A program made the position numbers and the translations under genes. From Bacteroidaceae bacterium (GTDB taxonomy: Bacteria > Bacteroidota > Bacteroidia > Bacteroidales > Bacteroidaceae), in NCBI GenBank assembly GCA_017962495.1, contig JAGCVH010000071.1:1-46684 (forward strand): a DNA stretch of 46,684 bases, written 5' to 3'. Below, piece by piece: positions 5,252 to 35,474 of this stretch (positions are counted from its first letter, which is position 1; every line of letters begins with the position of its first letter). The notes under the pieces were generated by a model. The model saw nothing but the letters and a program-made list of their open reading frames with translations, was not told where the DNA came from and ran no database searches.

Positions 5252-5294
5252 CAGATATAATTAACAGAAACGAACAAATTTACTATTATATAAT

Positions 5295-6968
5295 ATGGAA
5301 ACAGCTGGAAGCTTTAACCAATTTATATTTGACGCCATTCAGAAGTATTGGGATCAGGATGCGATGTCGGACTATGGAGTCTCGACCCTGCAATACAAGG
5401 ACGTGGCCCGCATCATCGAGAAACTGCACATCCTGTTCCAGCATAGCGGCGTTCGTCCCGGCGACAAGGTGGCGCTGTGCGGTAAGAACCAATGCCGTTG
5501 GGGTGCAGCTTTCTTTGCCATCACCACTTACGGCGCAGTAGCAGTACCCGTGCTGCATGAGTTCCACCCTCAGTCCATTCACGACATTGTCAACCACAGC
5601 GATGCCAAGCTGCTCTTTGTCGAGGACAAGATATACCAGAATCTCAATCCCGACGAGATGCCTCAGTTGGAAGGCATCCTCAGCATCATCGACTACCACC
5701 TTTTTGTATCGAGAAGCGAACTGCTGACCTTTGCCCGCGAGAACCTCAACCGCCTGTTTGGCGAGAAGTTCCCGATGAACTTCCGCAAGCACCACATTGC
5801 GCCCTATTATGCCGACCAACCCGAGGAGATGGCCATCATCAACTACACCTCGGGTTCGACGGGTAACTCCAAGGGTGTAATGATTCCCTATCGCGCACTC
5901 TGGAGCAACCGCATGTTTGCCGAAGAGGTACTGGGCAGCACGATAACACAGGGCAAGAAGATGCTTTCTATGCTGCCATTGGCCCACACCTACGGTATGG
6001 CGTACGACTTCATCTACGCCTTCACCAAAGGCGTACACATCCACTTCCTCACCAAACTGGCCAGTCCCACTGTCCTCATGAAAGCTTTGGCCGACATTAA
6101 GCCCTGCATACTCATTGTCGTACCGCTCATCATCGAGAAGGTTGTCCGCAAGGCCATCATGCCTCGACTGCAAGACCCGAAGATACGCATACTGATGATG
6201 ACTCCCGTCATTGGTGATCGCATACGCCGCAAGATATGCGACGGACTGACCAAGGCATTGGGAGGCAACTTCTACGAAGTAATCATCGGAGGCTCGGCAC
6301 TGAACAAAGAGGTAGAGGACGTATTGCACGACATCGGCTTCCGCTACACGGTGGGCTATGGTGCAACGGAGTGCTCCCCCATCCTGGCCTATAGTGACTG
6401 GAAGACCTTCGTCAAGGGCAGTTGTGGACGTCCTGCACCGCGCATGACCTTGAAGATTGACAGCTCCGACCCCGAACACGTACCTGGTGAGATTCTTGCC
6501 CAAGGCATGAACGTCATGCTGGGTTACTACAAGAACGAGGAGGCTACACGCGATACGCTGAAGGATGGTTGGTACCACACGGGCGACCTGGGCATCATGG
6601 ACCACGATGGCAATGTATTCATCAAGGGACGCTCGAAGAACATGCTCTTGGGAGCCAACGGACAGAATGTCTATCCCGAGGAGATCGAGGACAAACTCGT
6701 AGGTCTGCCTTTGGTAGGCGAGTGCGTCGTCATACAGAAAGGCGAGAAGTTCTACGGACTGGTTTATCCCGATCCCGATAAGGTTAAAGAGCTGGACCTC
6801 ACTACGTCTGACCTCGAAACCATCATGGAACAGAACCGCAAGGACCTCAACCTTATCATTCCCAACTACTGCAGCCTGAGTGGCATACGCCTGATGGATC
6901 AGGAGTTTGAGAAGACACCTAAAAAGAGCATCCGCCGCTTCAAGTATATGGACTACCCCATCGACTGA
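5295..6968 (+). CDS. AMP-binding acyl-CoA synthetase, copy 2
   Basis: This tandem paralog has 557 residues, the same length as copy 1, and is very similar throughout. All motifs are kept: YTSGSTGNSKGVM, GYGATECSP, YHTGDLG and TPKKSIRRFKY. Differences cluster near residues 90-130, 180-200 and 280-300, which may reflect a changed acyl pocket. It has no promoter of its own in the 43-base gap, so it is probably co-transcribed. A terminator follows at 7000. Confidence 0.92.
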   Translation: METAGSFNQFIFDAIQKYWDQDAMSDYGVSTLQYKDVARIIEKLHILFQHSGVRPGDKVALCGKNQCRWGAAFFAITTYGAVAVPVLHEFHPQSIHDIVNHSDAKLLFVEDKIYQNLNPDEMPQLEGILSIIDYHLFVSRSELLTFARENLNRLFGEKFPMNFRKHHIAPYYADQPEEMAIINYTSGSTGNSKGVMIPYRALWSNRMFAEEVLGSTITQGKKMLSMLPLAHTYGMAYDFIYAFTKGVHIHFLTKLASPTVLMKALADIKPCILIVVPLIIEKVVRKAIMPRLQDPKIRILMMTPVIGDRIRRKICDGLTKALGGNFYEVIIGGSALNKEVEDVLHDIGFRYTVGYGATECSPILAYSDWKTFVKGSCGRPAPRMTLKIDSSDPEHVPGEILAQGMNVMLGYYKNEEATRDTLKDGWYHTGDLGIMDHDGNVFIKGRSKNMLLGANGQNVYPEEIEDKLVGLPLVGECVVIQKGEKFYGLVYPDPDKVKELDLTTSDLETIMEQNRKDLNLIIPNYCSLSGIRLMDQEFEKTPKKSIRRFKYMDYPID

Positions 6969-18766: not shown

Positions 18767-19042
18767 ATGACAAAGCAAGAGTTAGCAAAAAAGGTTGCTG
18801 CAATGACAGGAGTTGACCAGGCAACAGCACTGGTATGTGTTGAAGGAGTTATGGCTGCCATCAAGGATAGTCTTATCCAAGAGGAACCCGTGTACCTACG
18901 CGGTTTCGGTAGTTTCATCCTAAAGAGGCGTGCAGAAAAGACCGCGCGAAACATTTCAAAAAACACGACAATTACCATCCCTGCCCACAACATCCCTGCT
19001 TTCAAACCCTGTAAGGATTTCCTCACTCAGGTAAAGAACTAA
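18767..19042 (+). CDS. HU/IHF-family DNA-binding protein
   Basis: This 91-residue protein has the compact HU/IHF fold: helices TKQELAKKVAAMTG and ATALVCVEGVMAAIKDSL, then YLRGFGSFILKRRAEKTARN, where the arm begins. The IP in TITIPAHNIPAFKP contains the proline that intercalates in DNA minor grooves. It is a nucleoid protein that bends DNA. It has its own promoter and terminator, unlike the larger HU-HIG protein at 14051. Confidence 0.95.
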   Translation: MTKQELAKKVAAMTGVDQATALVCVEGVMAAIKDSLIQEEPVYLRGFGSFILKRRAEKTARNISKNTTITIPAHNIPAFKPCKDFLTQVKN

Positions 19043-20041: not shown

Positions 20042-21325
20042 TCACTTCTTCCATTCTTTGAACCTTTCGCCCCAAAGCTGACGCATGCGCTCGCTGAGTT
20101 TGTTCTCGGCGGGATTCTGTTGAGGATGCCAGAAGCGAGCATCCTTCAGTGCGTCGGGCAGGAATTGCTGCACTACGAAGTTGCCTTCGTAGTCATGGGC
20201 ATATTTGTAACCCTCACTATAGCCCAGCTCCTTCATCAGTGCGGTTGGGGCATTACGCAAGTGCAAGGGAACGGGTTGATTTCCACTGCGACGCACCTCT
20301 TCCAATGCTGCCCCAATGCCCATATAGGCAGAGTTACTCTTCGGACTTGTAGCCAGATAGACAGTAGCCTCGGCAAGAGGGATGCGGCCTTCAGGCCAAC
20401 CTATCTTCATCACCGTGTCAAAAGCTGCATTCGCCAACAGCAAAGCGTTTGGATTGGCCAAACCAATGTCTTCTGAAGCACTGATAACCAGACGACGGGC
20501 AATGAAAGCGGGATCTTCGCCACCTTCTATCATGCGTGCCAACCAATACAGTGCGCCATCAGGGTCACTGCCTCGAATGGATTTGATGAAGGCCGAGATG
20601 ATGTCGTAATGCATCTCCCCATCCTTGTCATAGGCCAGAGGATTCTGCTGCAGGCGTTCTGTAACCAGGTCGTCGGTAATAACGAGTGTTTCGCCCTTGC
20701 TTAGAGGTTCGGATAGCAAGTCGAAGATATTCAGCAACTTGCGTGCATCGCCTCCACTAAAACGCAACAGAGCTTCCGTCTCCCGAAGCTCGATCTTGAG
20801 GTCACGCAACACCACATCCTTTTTTATGGCACGACGAGCCAGTTCCAAGAGGTCGTCCTTGCCAAGACTTTTCAACACATAGACCTGACAACGGCTCAGC
20901 AAAGGACGTATGACTTCGAAAGAGGGATTCTCCGTGGTGGCACCAATGAGCGTGATTATACCTTGTTCTACGGCACCCAGCAAACTATCTTGCTGGGATT
21001 TGGAGAAACGATGGATTTCGTCGATGAACAATATGGGACTGGCGGTATTGAAAAAGCGATTCGACTTGGCCTTCTCAACAATCTCACGCACATCCTTTAC
21101 GCCACTGGTCACAGCCGAGAGGGTGTAGAAAGGAGTCTGCAACTGATGGGCAATGATGGAAGCCAAGGTAGTCTTGCCCACCCCTGGAGGTCCCCAAAGG
21201 ATGAAACTGGCAACATGGCCCGACTCAATCATCCGACGGAGTACAGCCCCCTCGCCTACCAAATGTTTCTGCCCAATGTAATCGTCGAGCGACGTTGGGC
21301 GCATTCTCTCTGCCAATGGTTGCAT
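20042..21325 (-). CDS. rarA: Replication-associated recombination protein A (AAA+ ATPase)
   Basis: RarA/MgsA is a clamp-loader-like AAA+ ATPase acting at stalled replication forks. The 427-residue protein has Walker A GPPGVGKTT, Walker B LFIDEIH, arginine-containing sensor segments, and the C-terminal tetramerisation region (EDIGLANPNAL, NQPVPLHLRNAPT). The start at 21325 (MQPLAERMRPTS) was chosen because the longer in-frame start at 21346 would lie inside the -7 box at 21334-21341. The mRNA would be almost leaderless. Confidence 0.95.
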   Translation of the reverse strand: MQPLAERMRPTSLDDYIGQKHLVGEGAVLRRMIESGHVASFILWGPPGVGKTTLASIIAHQLQTPFYTLSAVTSGVKDVREIVEKAKSNRFFNTASPILFIDEIHRFSKSQQDSLLGAVEQGIITLIGATTENPSFEVIRPLLSRCQVYVLKSLGKDDLLELARRAIKKDVVLRDLKIELRETEALLRFSGGDARKLLNIFDLLSEPLSKGETLVITDDLVTERLQQNPLAYDKDGEMHYDIISAFIKSIRGSDPDGALYWLARMIEGGEDPAFIARRLVISASEDIGLANPNALLLANAAFDTVMKIGWPEGRIPLAEATVYLATSPKSNSAYMGIGAALEEVRRSGNQPVPLHLRNAPTALMKELGYSEGYKYAHDYEGNFVVQQFLPDALKDARFWHPQQNPAENKLSERMRQLWGERFKEWKK

Positions 21326-21333
21326 AACAAATG

Positions 21334-21393
21334 CAAATATACGCATTTATTGTGAATTGTGAATTATGAATTACGAATTATTTTGTACCTTTG
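21334..21393. promoter_or_regulatory. 60-base divergent promoter module (rarA / glycosyltransferase)
   Basis: On the minus strand a -7 box TATATTTG (21334-21341) faces rarA. On the plus strand TACCTTTG (21386-21393) faces the glycosyltransferase. Each lies exactly 20 bases from the same AATT at 21362-21365, which takes the -33 position for both. The interior is made of heptads AATTGTG, AATTATG, AATTACG, AATTATT. The module aligns without gaps to 27008-27067. Confidence 0.75.
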
Positions 21394-21398
21394 CAGAG

Positions 21399-22514
21399 AT
21401 GAAAATACACGTCGTCAGTTTCCAAGTCCCATATCCCGCCAATTATGGTGGGGCCATCGATGTGTTCTACAAGTTAAAGGCCTTGCGGGAAAGGGGATAT
21501 GAGGTGGTACTGCACACCTATGTGTATGGAGACCGGCACGAAGAGCCCGCACTGGAACAAGTATGCAGCAAGGTGCATTATTACCCGCGCAAGACGGGAT
21601 GGTGCAAGCAGTTCTCCGCCCTACCTTATATTGTTACCACGCGCGATAGCCAGCAATTACTGAAAGACCTGTGCGAGGACGATGCCCCTATCCTATTCGA
21701 AGGCTTACACACTTGTTTCTTCCTTAACCATCCCCTCTTAGCACGGCGGAAGAAGATAGTACGCATGCACAACGTTGAGCATAAGTACTACTGGCGTCTT
21801 GCCCAGCAATCGGGTTGGAACTGGCGTACGATTTACTACACAATAGAGAGTCTGCGCCTGCGATGCTTCGAACGTCAGTTGCGACACGCCGATCTCATAT
21901 GCGCTATCACCAAAGCCGACATGCAGGCCATCGAACAGATGGTTCCAGGCAAGAAGGTTATCCACCTCCCCGTCTTCTTCGATGCGACATTCCCCTCCAC
22001 TACGACGCCAACCGAACCCTTTGTGCTGTATCACGGGAATCTGGCCGTAGAGGAAAACCAACGGGCAGTGGAATACATCTTCCGACACATCGTCCCGCGC
22101 TGTCCCGATGTCAGGTTTGTTATTGCCGGACGCAACGCCCAATTCAAACACATCCCCAATAATGTTCAGATCATAGACAGTCCCTCGGACGAGCAACTCG
22201 ACCAACTTTTGCGTACCGCACGCATTCACCTGATGCTCACTTTCCAGCCTACTGGTATCAAATTGAAACTACTGAACACACTTGTGCGCGGAAACGGACA
22301 CATCATTGCCAATCACGACATGCTGTACGGCCACTCCTTTGGACGATTCTGCACGCGCGCCGACAAGCCAGAGAACATAGTGGAAGCCGTTTATAATCTA
22401 ATAAACACCGATTTACCCGCCAAAGAATTGGAGAAAAGACAGGCATACCTTATAAAAATCAAAAAGGCCGGAATCTCACGACTCAGCCTTTTTCAAATAG
22501 GTATTAGTTTTTAA
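21399..22514 (+). CDS. Glycosyltransferase (GT4-like), C-terminus runs through a terminator
   Basis: This 371-residue GT-B-fold transferase lacks a signal peptide; it probably works at the inner face of the membrane on an envelope glycan. Visible are the N-terminal nucleotide-fold start HVVSFQVPYPANYGGAIDVFYKL, RMHNVEHKYY, a second domain beginning FVLYHGNLAVEENQ, FVIAGRN, and FQPTGIKLKLLNTLVRG at the donor site. ATG 21399 is five bases after the -7 box. The last 20 or so residues are encoded across a terminator hairpin (22461-22493), so the normal 3' end has probably been lost. Confidence 0.85.
   Translation: MKIHVVSFQVPYPANYGGAIDVFYKLKALRERGYEVVLHTYVYGDRHEEPALEQVCSKVHYYPRKTGWCKQFSALPYIVTTRDSQQLLKDLCEDDAPILFEGLHTCFFLNHPLLARRKKIVRMHNVEHKYYWRLAQQSGWNWRTIYYTIESLRLRCFERQLRHADLICAITKADMQAIEQMVPGKKVIHLPVFFDATFPSTTTPTEPFVLYHGNLAVEENQRAVEYIFRHIVPRCPDVRFVIAGRNAQFKHIPNNVQIIDSPSDEQLDQLLRTARIHLMLTFQPTGIKLKLLNTLVRGNGHIIANHDMLYGHSFGRFCTRADKPENIVEAVYNLINTDLPAKELEKRQAYLIKIKKAGISRLSLFQIGISF
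22461..22499 (+). terminator. Terminator inside the 3' end of the glycosyltransferase frame
   Basis: AAAAAGGC at 22461-22468 pairs with GCCTTTTT at 22486-22493. The stop codon of the frame, at 22512-22514, lies beyond it. Confidence 0.65.
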
Positions 22515-24491: not shown

Positions 24492-24597
24492 GACTTAGGC
24501 ATACAGTCAATAAGACCTAGGTCTTCCGAAATAAGACCTAAGGTCCTCCGAAAGAAGGCCTAAGGTCTTCGGAGATAAGACCTGAGGTTCATTAAGC
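24488..24597. repeat. Tandem 21-22 base palindromic repeats after glnS
   Basis: Units beginning ATAAGACCT or AGAAGGCCT start at 24488 (partial), 24510, 24531, 24553 and 24575. Each has a palindromic core of the type AGACCTAAGGTCT followed by TCCGAA or TCGGAG. The word AAGGCCTAAGG (24555-24565) recurs twice at 44283-44314. Confidence 0.7.
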
Positions 24598-25808: not shown

Positions 25809-26300
25809 TTAACTCAACTGACGACTGAAGTCCACCATTTTGATAGCCGTGATGGCACATTCGTCGCCCTTGTTTCCGAGCATACCGCCCGAACGAGCCT
25901 CGGCTTGCTCCATATCGTTGCACATGAGCAATCCGTAGATGACGGGGATGTTCCCCTGCCTGTTCAGTTCAGCAAGCCCTTGGGTAGTACCTTCACATAT
26001 GTAGTCGAAATGCGGAGTATCGCCTCGCACCACACATCCGATGGCAATGATTGCATCGAAACGATTGCTGTTTAACATGCGTGATGCACCAAAGACGAGT
26101 TCGAAACTACCAGGAACGGTAAGCACGGTGATGTCCTCTTCCTTTGCTCCATGTTTCTGCAAAGTCTCATAGGCACCCTTGAGCAGTCCGCCCGTCACCT
26201 CCTTGTTCCATTCCGAAACGACGATACCAAAGCGCATTCCCTCTGCCGACGGAACGCTTTGCGAATCGTAATCCGAAAGGTTATGAAAAGCTGTAGCCAT
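25809..26300 (-). CDS. ribH: 6,7-dimethyl-8-ribityllumazine synthase
   Basis: This is the penultimate enzyme of riboflavin synthesis, 163 residues long. It condenses 5-amino-6-ribitylaminouracil with dihydroxybutanone phosphate and usually forms a 60-mer shell. Family motifs include [30 protein letters not shown] and GNKGDECA. The start codon overlaps the ancestral stop codon of the upstream TPR gene (TAATG), so the two were translationally coupled. That upstream frame now stops 51 bases earlier at an amber codon, which may lower ribH coupling. Confidence 0.95.
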
Positions 26301-26968
26301 TATTTAGCAGCCCTAACGCGCTCGATGTACTTGTCAATCTCTTGACCCTGCTAGCTGGAACGATAGTTGGCCTTCACCTCCTCATAGAGCTTCAGAGCCT
26401 CGTTAGCCTTGCCGTCAGCTTCCAGGAGTTCAGCAGCCTGCACCAAATAGATAGGTGAAAGCACAACGTTGTCAGCTTTCTTTGCGGCCTTCTTCAGTGT
26501 CTCCACTGCCTTATCGTTCTGACCGAGCTGAGCATACACGTTACCCAAAGCACCCAGTGCTGCAGGGCTAATCATCTCGTCCTTCTTCGTATCAAAGTCC
26601 TTCAGGTACTTCTCGGCATCCTCGAACTTTTCAGTATGGAAGGAAGCCAGACCTGCATACAACTTAGCCAAGTTACCCGACTTGGTGCGACCATACTTCT
26701 TCACCACCTCAGCGAAACCCAGCACCTGCTGACCATCGCCCGTGAGAGCTTTCTCGAACTGACCCTGCTGGAACAGTTGCTCGCAGGGGAACAAAGCCTC
26801 GGCGGCTTTCTGGTTACGGCGCTCCAGATAGTTACTAATCAGGATGGCAGCAATGATTGCAACAATCAAAACTCCCACGCAGATAGCGATTTTCTTTAAG
26901 TTTTTCTGTACAAAGGATTCTTCCTCAACGACGGGCTGAGCCGCGCCATTCTTGTTGTTTTTTGCCAT
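26300..26968 (-). pseudogene. Membrane-anchored TPR protein with premature amber codon
   Basis: The intact ancestral frame would encode 222 residues: a cytoplasmic N-tail, one membrane helix (about residues 29-46, IAICVGVLIVAIIAAILI) and periplasmic TPR repeats (KLYAGLASFHTEKFEDAEKYL, ALGNVYAQLGQNDKAVETL). A TAG at 26351-26353 stops it after 205 residues. Beyond it the same frame stays open for 16 codons that look genuine ([16 protein letters not shown]) to TAA at 26300-26302, overlapping the ribH ATG. The truncated protein keeps most of its TPRs and may still work, so 'pseudogene' marks the lesion rather than proven loss. Whether it is a real mutation, a sequencing error or a suppressed stop is open. 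Confidence 0.75.
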
Positions 26969-27007: not shown

Positions 27008-27067
27008 CAAAGGTACAAAATAATTGTGAATTACGAATTACGAATATCGAATTATTTTGTATCTTTG
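27008..27067. promoter_or_regulatory. 60-base divergent promoter module (TPR-ribH / recF)
   Basis: The minus-strand -7 box TACCTTTG is at 27008-27015 and the plus-strand -7 box TATCTTTG at 27060-27067. Both lie 20 bases from a shared AATT at 27036-27039. The arms are near-perfect inverted repeats (AATTATTTTGTATCTTTG on the right, its complement with one change on the left). The centre holds AATTGTG, AATTACG, AATTACG, AATATCG, AATTATT heptads. Confidence 0.8.
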
Positions 27068-27094
27068 TGTCCAAATGCATCCAAATGTATCCAA

Positions 27095-28213
27095 ATGATA
27101 CTTACCCGCCTTTCCATACTCAACTATAAGAACATCGAGCAGGCCGACCTCGAGCTGTCTCCCGGCATCAATTGCCTAATCGGACAGAACGGCGAGGGAA
27201 AGACCAACCTGCTGGACGCGATTTATTTCCTATCGATGTGCAAGAGCGCGACCACGAGCATCGATTCGTCGTGCATCCGTCACGGAAGCGAGTTCATGAT
27301 GATTCAAGGCCAGTATGAAAGGGAGGACGGAAGTCCTGAGGAAATATACTGCGGACTCAAACTCGGACAGAAGAAGGTCATGCGTCGAGGCAAGAAGGCC
27401 TACAAGCGCCTGGCCGAACACATAGGTCTCATTCCCGTCGTCGTCGTCAGTCCGTCCGATGGCGAACTCATCAGCGGAGGCAGTGAGGAGAGACGCCGCT
27501 TCCTCGACATCGTCATCTCGCAATGCGAACCAGCCTACATCGACTCGCTCATTCGCTACAACAAAGCCTTGCAACAGCGCAATGCCTTGCTGAAGATGGA
27601 AGATGCCGAGCCCGACCCCGAACTGCTGTCCCTTTGGGAGGAGGCTATGGCTCGCGAGGGTGAGTTCATCTATCAACGCAGAGCCCATTATGTCGAGCAA
27701 CTCATCCCTACTTTCCAGCGCTACTACTCCACCATCTCAAACGGGGCAGAGGAGGTGGGACTTCGCTATGTCAGCCATTGCCAGCGAGGACCACTCCTCG
27801 AGGTGATACAGCGCGACCGCCACAAGGACCGTGCCGTAGGCTACTCGCTTCACGGCATACATAAGGACGAACTGGAAATGACGCTCGGCGGCTATCCCAT
27901 CAAGCGCGAAGGAAGTCAGGGACAAAACAAGTCGTACTTGATAGCACTCAAACTGAGCCAATTCGATTTCCTTCGTCGCACGGGCAGTCGCACCACCCCC
28001 ATCCTGCTGCTCGACGACATTTTCGACAAGCTCGATGCCACTCGCGTGGAGCAAATCATGCGACTCGTCTCAGGCGAAGACTTCGGACAGATATTCATCA
28101 CGGACACCAACCGCGACCACCTCGACCAGATTCTGAACCTCGTTTCAGGCCAGTATCGCCTCTTCCATGTCCACGCTGGATCGTTCAACGAGAAAGAGAA
28201 CCTTAATCCCTGA
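27095..28213 (+). CDS. recF: DNA replication and repair protein RecF
   Basis: This 372-residue ABC-type ATPase loads RecA at single-strand gaps. Walker A GQNGEGKTN starts at residue 30, the signature region is GSQGQNKSYLIALKL, and Walker B is LLLDDIFDKLD. ATG 27095 was chosen because it directly precedes the conserved MILTRLSILNYKN. Three 10-base repeats (27068-27097) each carry an ATG, one in every frame, and only the third begins RecF. The gene is 5 bases from the DciA-like gene, forming an operon. Confidence 0.95.
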   Translation: MILTRLSILNYKNIEQADLELSPGINCLIGQNGEGKTNLLDAIYFLSMCKSATTSIDSSCIRHGSEFMMIQGQYEREDGSPEEIYCGLKLGQKKVMRRGKKAYKRLAEHIGLIPVVVVSPSDGELISGGSEERRRFLDIVISQCEPAYIDSLIRYNKALQQRNALLKMEDAEPDPELLSLWEEAMAREGEFIYQRRAHYVEQLIPTFQRYYSTISNGAEEVGLRYVSHCQRGPLLEVIQRDRHKDRAVGYSLHGIHKDELEMTLGGYPIKREGSQGQNKSYLIALKLSQFDFLRRTGSRTTPILLLDDIFDKLDATRVEQIMRLVSGEDFGQIFITDTNRDHLDQILNLVSGQYRLFHVHAGSFNEKENLNP

Positions 28214-30923: not shown

Positions 30924-30977
30924 CAAATCAAAGTTTTCTGTCGAATGTAAGGTCAATAATAACTTTTTTTAAGATAA

Positions 30978-31027
30978 TGTTCGTTAGCAATCGAGCCTAT
31001 GTTCGATGGCAATCAAACCTATGTTCA
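30978..31027. repeat. 22-base tandem repeats upstream of the TlpA-like gene
   Basis: Two 22-base units start at 30978 and 31000 with TGTTCG and GCAATC in the same register; a third partial unit (TGTTCAAAT) starts at 31022 and overlaps the stop codon region of the folate gene. They sit about 55 bases upstream of the -33 box, a place where an activator could bind. Confidence 0.6.
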
Positions 31028-35412: not shown

Positions 35413-35444
35413 CAAAAGTACACATAAATTACGAATTACGAATT
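35413..35444 (-). promoter_or_regulatory. Heptad-repeat promoter of the DMP19-smpB-metH unit
   Basis: On the minus strand TACTTTTG (35413-35420) is 20 bases from AATT at 35441-35444, within three AATTACG heptads. The geometry equals one half of the modules at 21334 and 27008. The right half is degenerate and has no outward -7 box. Confidence 0.65.
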
Positions 35445-35474
35445 ACGAAACACAAAAATAAAATTAAAAAAATG

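Follow-up and report, generated by a model that had tools for sequence, protein, structure and literature searches.

Among the described promoters closest to the elements examined here are those of the Bacteroides sigma-ABfr type, which, in the accessible text of PMC7366714, carry a TAnnTTTG box together with TTTG at −33. In Synechocystis, helically phased A-tracts lie in phase with the −10 element and the start site, and A-tracts of four bases are enriched at the helical pitch; the authors claim the first genome-wide observation of this kind, and divergent pairs are not treated in the available portion of the article (PMC9825172). Bidirectional promoters of Escherichia coli, as outlined in the available part of PMC12825309, consist of pseudo-symmetrical DNA that supports divergent transcription, with one polymerase excluding the other. 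Heptamer direct repeats of the unit TAACTGA are reported from Beggiatoaceae, Cyanobacteria and five Bacteroidetes in the accessible sections of PMC4679880. A literature search in which few subscription papers were covered found no description of helically phased divergent promoter spacing or of the 60 bp unit considered below.

The window, i.e. the whole stretch of DNA that was analysed, comprises 46,684 nt of a Bacteroidaceae contig, and we infer its host bacterium to be Prevotella-type. A sequence-only reading of the window had proposed a dispersed, possibly mobile, symmetrical promoter in which a central AATT is common to both sides as the −33 element. The account favoured here, with a probability of roughly 0.72, is that the units are ordinary housekeeping-type (TAnnTTTG) promoter pairs arranged back to back on a single helically phased ladder of A/T tracts.

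Two copies in the window and their recurrence

The geometry CAAAnnTA-N20-AATT-N20-TAnnTTTG is exact at 21334–21393 and at 27008–27067, so the identity of the two sites noted from the sequence holds. With up to three mismatches permitted, these two copies are the only matches in the window; 100 dinucleotide shuffles of the window gave a mean of 0.12 matches, and one of the 100 reached two. All four −7 boxes of the two copies match TAnnTTTG exactly, as in promoters of the Bacteroidetes sigma-ABfr type, and the −33 feature of that type, TTTG at N19/20, is absent from both.

At the first copy, the predicted −7 boxes of the rarA-side promoter (TATATTTG, 21334–21341, minus strand) and of the glycosyltransferase-side promoter (TACCTTTG, 21386–21393, plus strand), both assigned from the sequence, enclose a 44 bp spacer with a 7 bp array at 21349–21381 (about 4.7 copies, consensus ATTATGA; Tandem Repeats Finder and a period-7 scan). 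The rarA gene, for an MgsA/RarA-type AAA+ ATPase, occupies 20042–21322 on the minus strand (Pfam MgsA_C, 4.9e-73), its start codon at 21322 being the analyst's choice. The probable glycosyltransferase gene (21399–22514, plus strand) likewise has a start chosen by the analyst, at 21399 within the ORF 21366–22514; its name was read by eye from the N-terminus only, and a Pfam search gave no match at 1e-5. The second copy has predicted boxes for a TPR-ribH promoter (TACCTTTG, 27008–27015, minus strand) and for a recF promoter (TATCTTTG, 27060–27067, plus strand), with an array in the spacer at 27028–27054 (about 3.9 copies, consensus GAATTAC; Tandem Repeats Finder). The TPR protein gene (26351–26968; Pfam TPR_21, 6.3e-10) and ribH, encoding lumazine synthase (25809–26300; Pfam DMRL_synthase, 9.8e-52), lie on the minus strand, and recF (27095–28213; Pfam SMC_N, 4.3e-16) on the plus strand; matches to recF, some of them weak, occur in 57 of the 61 genus genomes searched. 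Pfam therefore backs rarA, the TPR protein, ribH and recF, and the proposal that the unit drives unrelated genes stands, the glycosyltransferase remaining without a Pfam match.

Other features of the window were apparent. A 10 bp direct repeat, TCCAAATGCA, surrounds the recF start at 27070–27097 and yields three ATGs in three frames directly after the −7 box; slippage could shift the recF start codon. Tandem repeats of 22 bp are located at 24509–24588 (3.7 copies) and 30977–31026 (2.3 copies), and a small HU/IHF-like protein, assigned by eye, is encoded at 18767–19042.

In the window's own genome (2,947,193 bases, 104 contigs) the strict pattern occurs at 12 places and its reversed-pattern control at none. 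Box pairs of 56–64 bp without the central AATT requirement occur at 42 places (control 0), 26 of them at 60 bp, 11 at 59, 3 at 61, 2 at 57 and none at 56, 58 or 62–64 bp, in a variable-gap search that may give one length per start. When the total length is widened to 43–73 bp there are 79 places vs 4 for the controls. A sample of 446,684 bases from the same genome contained seven divergent box pairs at 60 bp and two at 59 bp, and no convergent or tandem pairs at 59–61 bp. It also contained 33 divergent gene pairs; a box pair could be scored in 26, and in 10 of these it measured 59–60 bp. In shuffled regions, 3 of 134 pairs fell at 58–61 bp.

The search of relatives extends the finding beyond what had been claimed for the window: 15 of 61 genomes carry the strict pattern (reversed control 0 in all), namely 14 of the 37 genomes of the genus, own genome included, and 1 of the 24 from other families. 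Among 38 distinct copies of 56–64 bp with known surroundings (24 of the 42 in the own genome and 14 from relatives, one per matching relative), 36 lie between divergent genes by ORF calling; divergent pairs account for 177 of 1464 adjacent gene pairs in the sampled DNA. The two exceptions are locus L047, at 5275–5331 of the window, and locus L065, from another family. A gap-free symmetrical 60 bp unit thus does recur at divergent genes, far above chance. The neighbouring genes are unrelated, and include MerR/alanyl-tRNA synthetase type, FGGY kinase/MscS, OmpA/prolyl-tRNA synthetase and rarA/probable glycosyltransferase pairs; 22 of 25 neighbour proteins scanned against Pfam had a match. A scan of named genomes returned at least 117 loci, of which 80 were examined.

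Spacer content and 7 bp arrays

The central AATT is indeed present, but it is not single. In about 11 of the 12 strict copies of the own genome, as listed and judged by eye, it is part of a 7 bp-periodic run over the whole 44 bp spacer, which often holds five AATT at 7 bp spacing, N6 from each box. The spacers of other copies of equal length contain units of AAATGGT or of CCTAATC, or are free of repeats. Across copies the units thus vary widely (AATTRTG, AATTGAY, AAATGGT, CCTAATC, AAAGTTG). Period-7 arrays number 33 in the own genome and 51 in genome G017, exceeding every other period from 4 to 15, and three in genome G024. By eye and by period-7 scores, clear 7 bp arrays were found among the 80 examined loci under Prevotella, Prevotellaceae, Bacteroidaceae or other Bacteroidetes titles; copies titled outside Bacteroidetes had no such array.

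The 33 places with 7 bp arrays in the own-genome sample include many different units, and none of the 33 is in a convergent region. Additionally, a one-sided case is located at 35413–35460 of the window, where three AATTACG units adjoin a minus-strand TAnnTTTG box and there is no exact 60 bp partner.

These arrays raise the possibility that the unit is bound by a dedicated symmetrical regulator, or by a protein recognizing the 7 bp repeat, with the A/T comb described below being incidental. The exact register of five AATT with both boxes would suit such a protein, as would the prevalence of period 7 in the own genome and G017 and a nearly unchanged array-free spacer common to two species (loci L053 and L057). 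However, a single regulator sits poorly with repeat units that differ so widely between copies and with gene pairs that have no common theme; many arrays are also located away from divergent promoters (only 7 of the 33 in the own-genome sample are in divergent regions), and the helical ladder persists where arrays are missing. On balance the regulator is unlikely. Under the promoter-pair account, the 7 bp arrays would be a fast-changing spacer filler that holds the register.

Helical spacing of divergent boxes and the upstream A/T comb

The spacing analysis covered six genomes of the genus, 1,642,684 bases in all. The lengths of divergent box pairs gather around 40, 50, 60, 70, 81, 91, 101, 111 and 121 bp, and lengths of 41–47, 62–66 and 72–77 bp are empty in this sample. 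For the 141 divergent pairs of 36–159 bp the best period is 10.35 bp (R 0.56, nR2 44.3). The signal persists when lengths of 58–61 bp are excluded (n=102, nR2 19.8) and from 62 bp up (n=74, nR2 14.4), where none of 5000 uniform simulations matched it. Convergent pairs show no ladder at 10.3 bp (n=37, nR2 0.14). The ladder signal of tandem pairs is weak at most (nR2 3.1–3.3 at 10.3 bp, 1.0–1.3 from 62 bp up), and what remains of it is a peak at 36 bp, i.e. the TTTG −33 box at N20.

With period and phase fixed beforehand, the ladder was replicated in genomes outside the discovery set, both in G016 and G032 together (n=32, p=1.9e-4) and in the named-genome loci, at least 117 in number and counted with the anchor modules left out (n=51, p=9.2e-5); one of six control tests, a tandem one, reached p=0.02. 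Phasing is evident inside divergent intergenic regions (R 0.60, 125 pairs in 106 regions) and outside them (R 0.38, 48 pairs). Pairs with arrays (44, R 0.76) show it as well as pairs free of them (129, R 0.46), and its persistence in the latter led to the rejection of the heptads as its cause. The ladder was also considered as an order-wide trait and rejected, the small samples from other families being without signal; in two of these families (G039 and G051), covering 56–86 bp and 75 places among the matches listed, there is no 10.35 bp signal (p=0.37).

Judged by these spacings, the predicted −7 boxes of divergent promoters are separated by whole numbers of helical turns; 60 bp, where the box centres are five turns (52 bp) apart, is the clear favourite. 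The 60 bp unit would then be one rung of a helical ladder, a point missing from the sequence-only reading. Polymerase geometry alone could make 60 bp the tightest workable back-to-back packing, with the other rungs weak or due to chance, and the dominance of this length (26 of 42 pairs of 56–64 bp in the own genome, 22 of 141 in the six-genome sample) agrees with that. Yet the rungs from 62 bp up are phased by themselves, and the ladder also has rungs below 60 bp, at about 40 and 50 bp, which makes this explanation quite improbable.

The ladder has a counterpart upstream of single promoters. In 173 promoters from eight genomes, taken from tandem gene pairs where a divergent partner is not expected, tracts (A/T tetramers without a TpA step, with distances counted from the T of TAnnTTTG) peak at about 7, 17, 24–28, 38–39, 48, 59, 69, 80, 90, 101, 112 and 122 bases upstream; the 38–39 peak is the strongest, with a tract in 42 % of the 173. 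After 13 look-alike promoters were dropped, the remaining 160 gave R 0.37 and nR2 134 at 30–140 bp upstream, a value reached by 0 of 2000 random-offset nulls; for 80–120 bp alone, 8 of 2000 were as high. Predicted single promoters of the genus thus bear short A/T tracts every 10.3–10.4 bp over about 100 bp upstream of the −7 box. Boxes deep in genes (385) gave R of 0.13 or less and are not wholly flat (nR2 6.6).

The comb recurs in 33 Prevotella-titled loci, anchor modules excluded (30 promoters, R 0.32, nR2 29.3). The long comb is absent from small samples taken from 14 loci with titles of other Bacteroidetes (13 promoters, R 0.10) and from G051, from another family (11 promoters, R 0.06); one of the eight genomes, G014, also lacks the comb (8 promoters, R 0.08). 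Its local period drifts, being 9.55 at 40–80 bp and 11.2 at 80–120 bp. A/T-tract periodicity of about 10.5 bp is also found in random 1 kb windows and in intergenic DNA between convergent genes; the comb may therefore be a packing signal of the whole genome, with the promoters placed on it.

A comb fitted to single promoters only predicts a pair phase of 7.96 vs 8.18 observed (period 10.35), a difference of about 0.2 bp that ranges from 0.11 to 0.58 bp across periods of 10.3–10.5 bp. In a 60 bp pair, the T tract beside one box doubles as the principal upstream tract of the opposite promoter. The window copies fit the comb partly, their central AATT being half a turn out of phase. By sequence, the spacings of divergent pairs are those that bring the combs of both promoters into coincidence. 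Contacts of the alpha C-terminal domains with phased tracts, or wrapping of the upstream DNA, are routes by which polymerase can sense such tracts, and one or the other may be how they are read here.

The −33 position, the rarA site and comparison with known promoters

TTTG lies at N20 in 45 and at N19 in 17 of 187 single promoters (62 of 187 together), and AATT lies at N20 in 1 of 187. Excluding pairs outside divergent intergenic regions, TTTG at N19/20 was found on 2 of 68 sides of 58–61 bp pairs vs the 62 of 187 single promoters (Fisher 6e-8); in other divergent pairs it was found on 36 of 182 sides. The 60 bp pairs therefore appear to have mostly lost the TTTG −33 box. At 60 bp the −33 boxes of both sides would fall on one and the same tetranucleotide, and thus the class appears to manage without TTTG. 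Nor is a shared AATT supported as its substitute: besides its rarity at N20 in single promoters, it is central in only one of nine array-free 60 bp pairs, and the centre of the unit is out of step with the comb by half a turn.

The rarA promoter was compared at 30 loci, 16 of which have a divergent pair. For the lengths, locus L319 (52 and 91 bp) was left out and genome G028 added, giving 16 lengths from 16 genomes: 59 bp in four, 60 bp in six, 69 bp in two, and 61, 83, 88 and 101 bp in one each. A pair of 59–61 bp is thus present in 11 of the 16. The five other lengths fit the ladder weakly (p=0.07), with 83 and 88 bp off it. The repeat units at this site are AATTRTG-like, AATTGAY-like, AAAGTTG, AAAAGTG or none, and the far-side gene differs in some species. 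Because length is mostly constant while the unit changes or is gone between species, the geometry outlives the repeat. Separately, among the matches listed, a promoter-like stretch, TTTCGCTYGATTTGCACTAYCTTTG, recurs in the own genome at C6:6598–6647, C20:32789–32838 and C17:115587–115655, and may represent a single regulon or a repeated element; loci L302 and L311 have a similar stretch ahead of rarA.

A dispersed mobile promoter with AATT as common −33 element would explain why the 60 bp unit recurs with conserved arms and why similar AATTnnn units occur in many places, but the scarcity of AATT at N20 in single promoters, the existence of 60 bp pairs without arrays and the mostly steady length at the rarA site, the one place compared between species, under different repeat units leave it with very little probability.

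Within the favoured account of back-to-back promoter pairs, two polymerases would be unable to sit together at 60 bp, so that both genes would compete or alternate in firing; competition for one site between divergent promoters is plausible. A stronger formulation is possible, although doubtful: the pairs may form a separate class of dyad-symmetrical dual promoters that lack a −33 element. A single phased A/T comb would then serve two polymerases from one face of the helix, exclusive occupancy together with local supercoiling would couple the opposite genes, and evolution could increase their distance only by whole turns. Should the ladder prove functional, the spacing of divergent promoters could be read and tested, and it would predict workable spacer lengths; the shape of some ten turns of upstream DNA would then be important in a major genus of the gut and rumen with little-understood promoters. 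Orthologous pairs vary in spacer length and content and thus provide a natural experiment.

Several known systems share part of this organization. Like the TAACTGA repeats, the 7 bp arrays here are short and intergenic; the unit differs, and TAACTGA repeats are mostly directly upstream of start codons, with promoter register not described in the accessible sections of PMC4679880. The E. coli bidirectional promoters, as presented in the available part of PMC12825309, have their symmetry within one shared −10 element. Here, unlike in E. coli, there are two separate −7 boxes with a gap that is most commonly 44 bp, and phased spacings extend beyond 100 bp; both window copies have two separate boxes at 44 bp, not starts beside or within one shared −10. 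The −7 box is that of Bacteroides sigma-ABfr promoters as given in the accessible text of PMC7366714, and single promoters here also carry TTTG at N19/N20, whereas the 58–61 bp pairs are nearly without it (2 of 68 sides). The Synechocystis arrangement, to the extent covered by the available portion of PMC9825172, is similar in that A/T tracts recur with the helical pitch and keep a fixed register to the core promoter, here at genus level across 160 single promoters. In contrast to Synechocystis, the anchor here is the TAnnTTTG box, the comb extends for about 100 bp, and the spacing of divergent promoters appears to be quantized by it.
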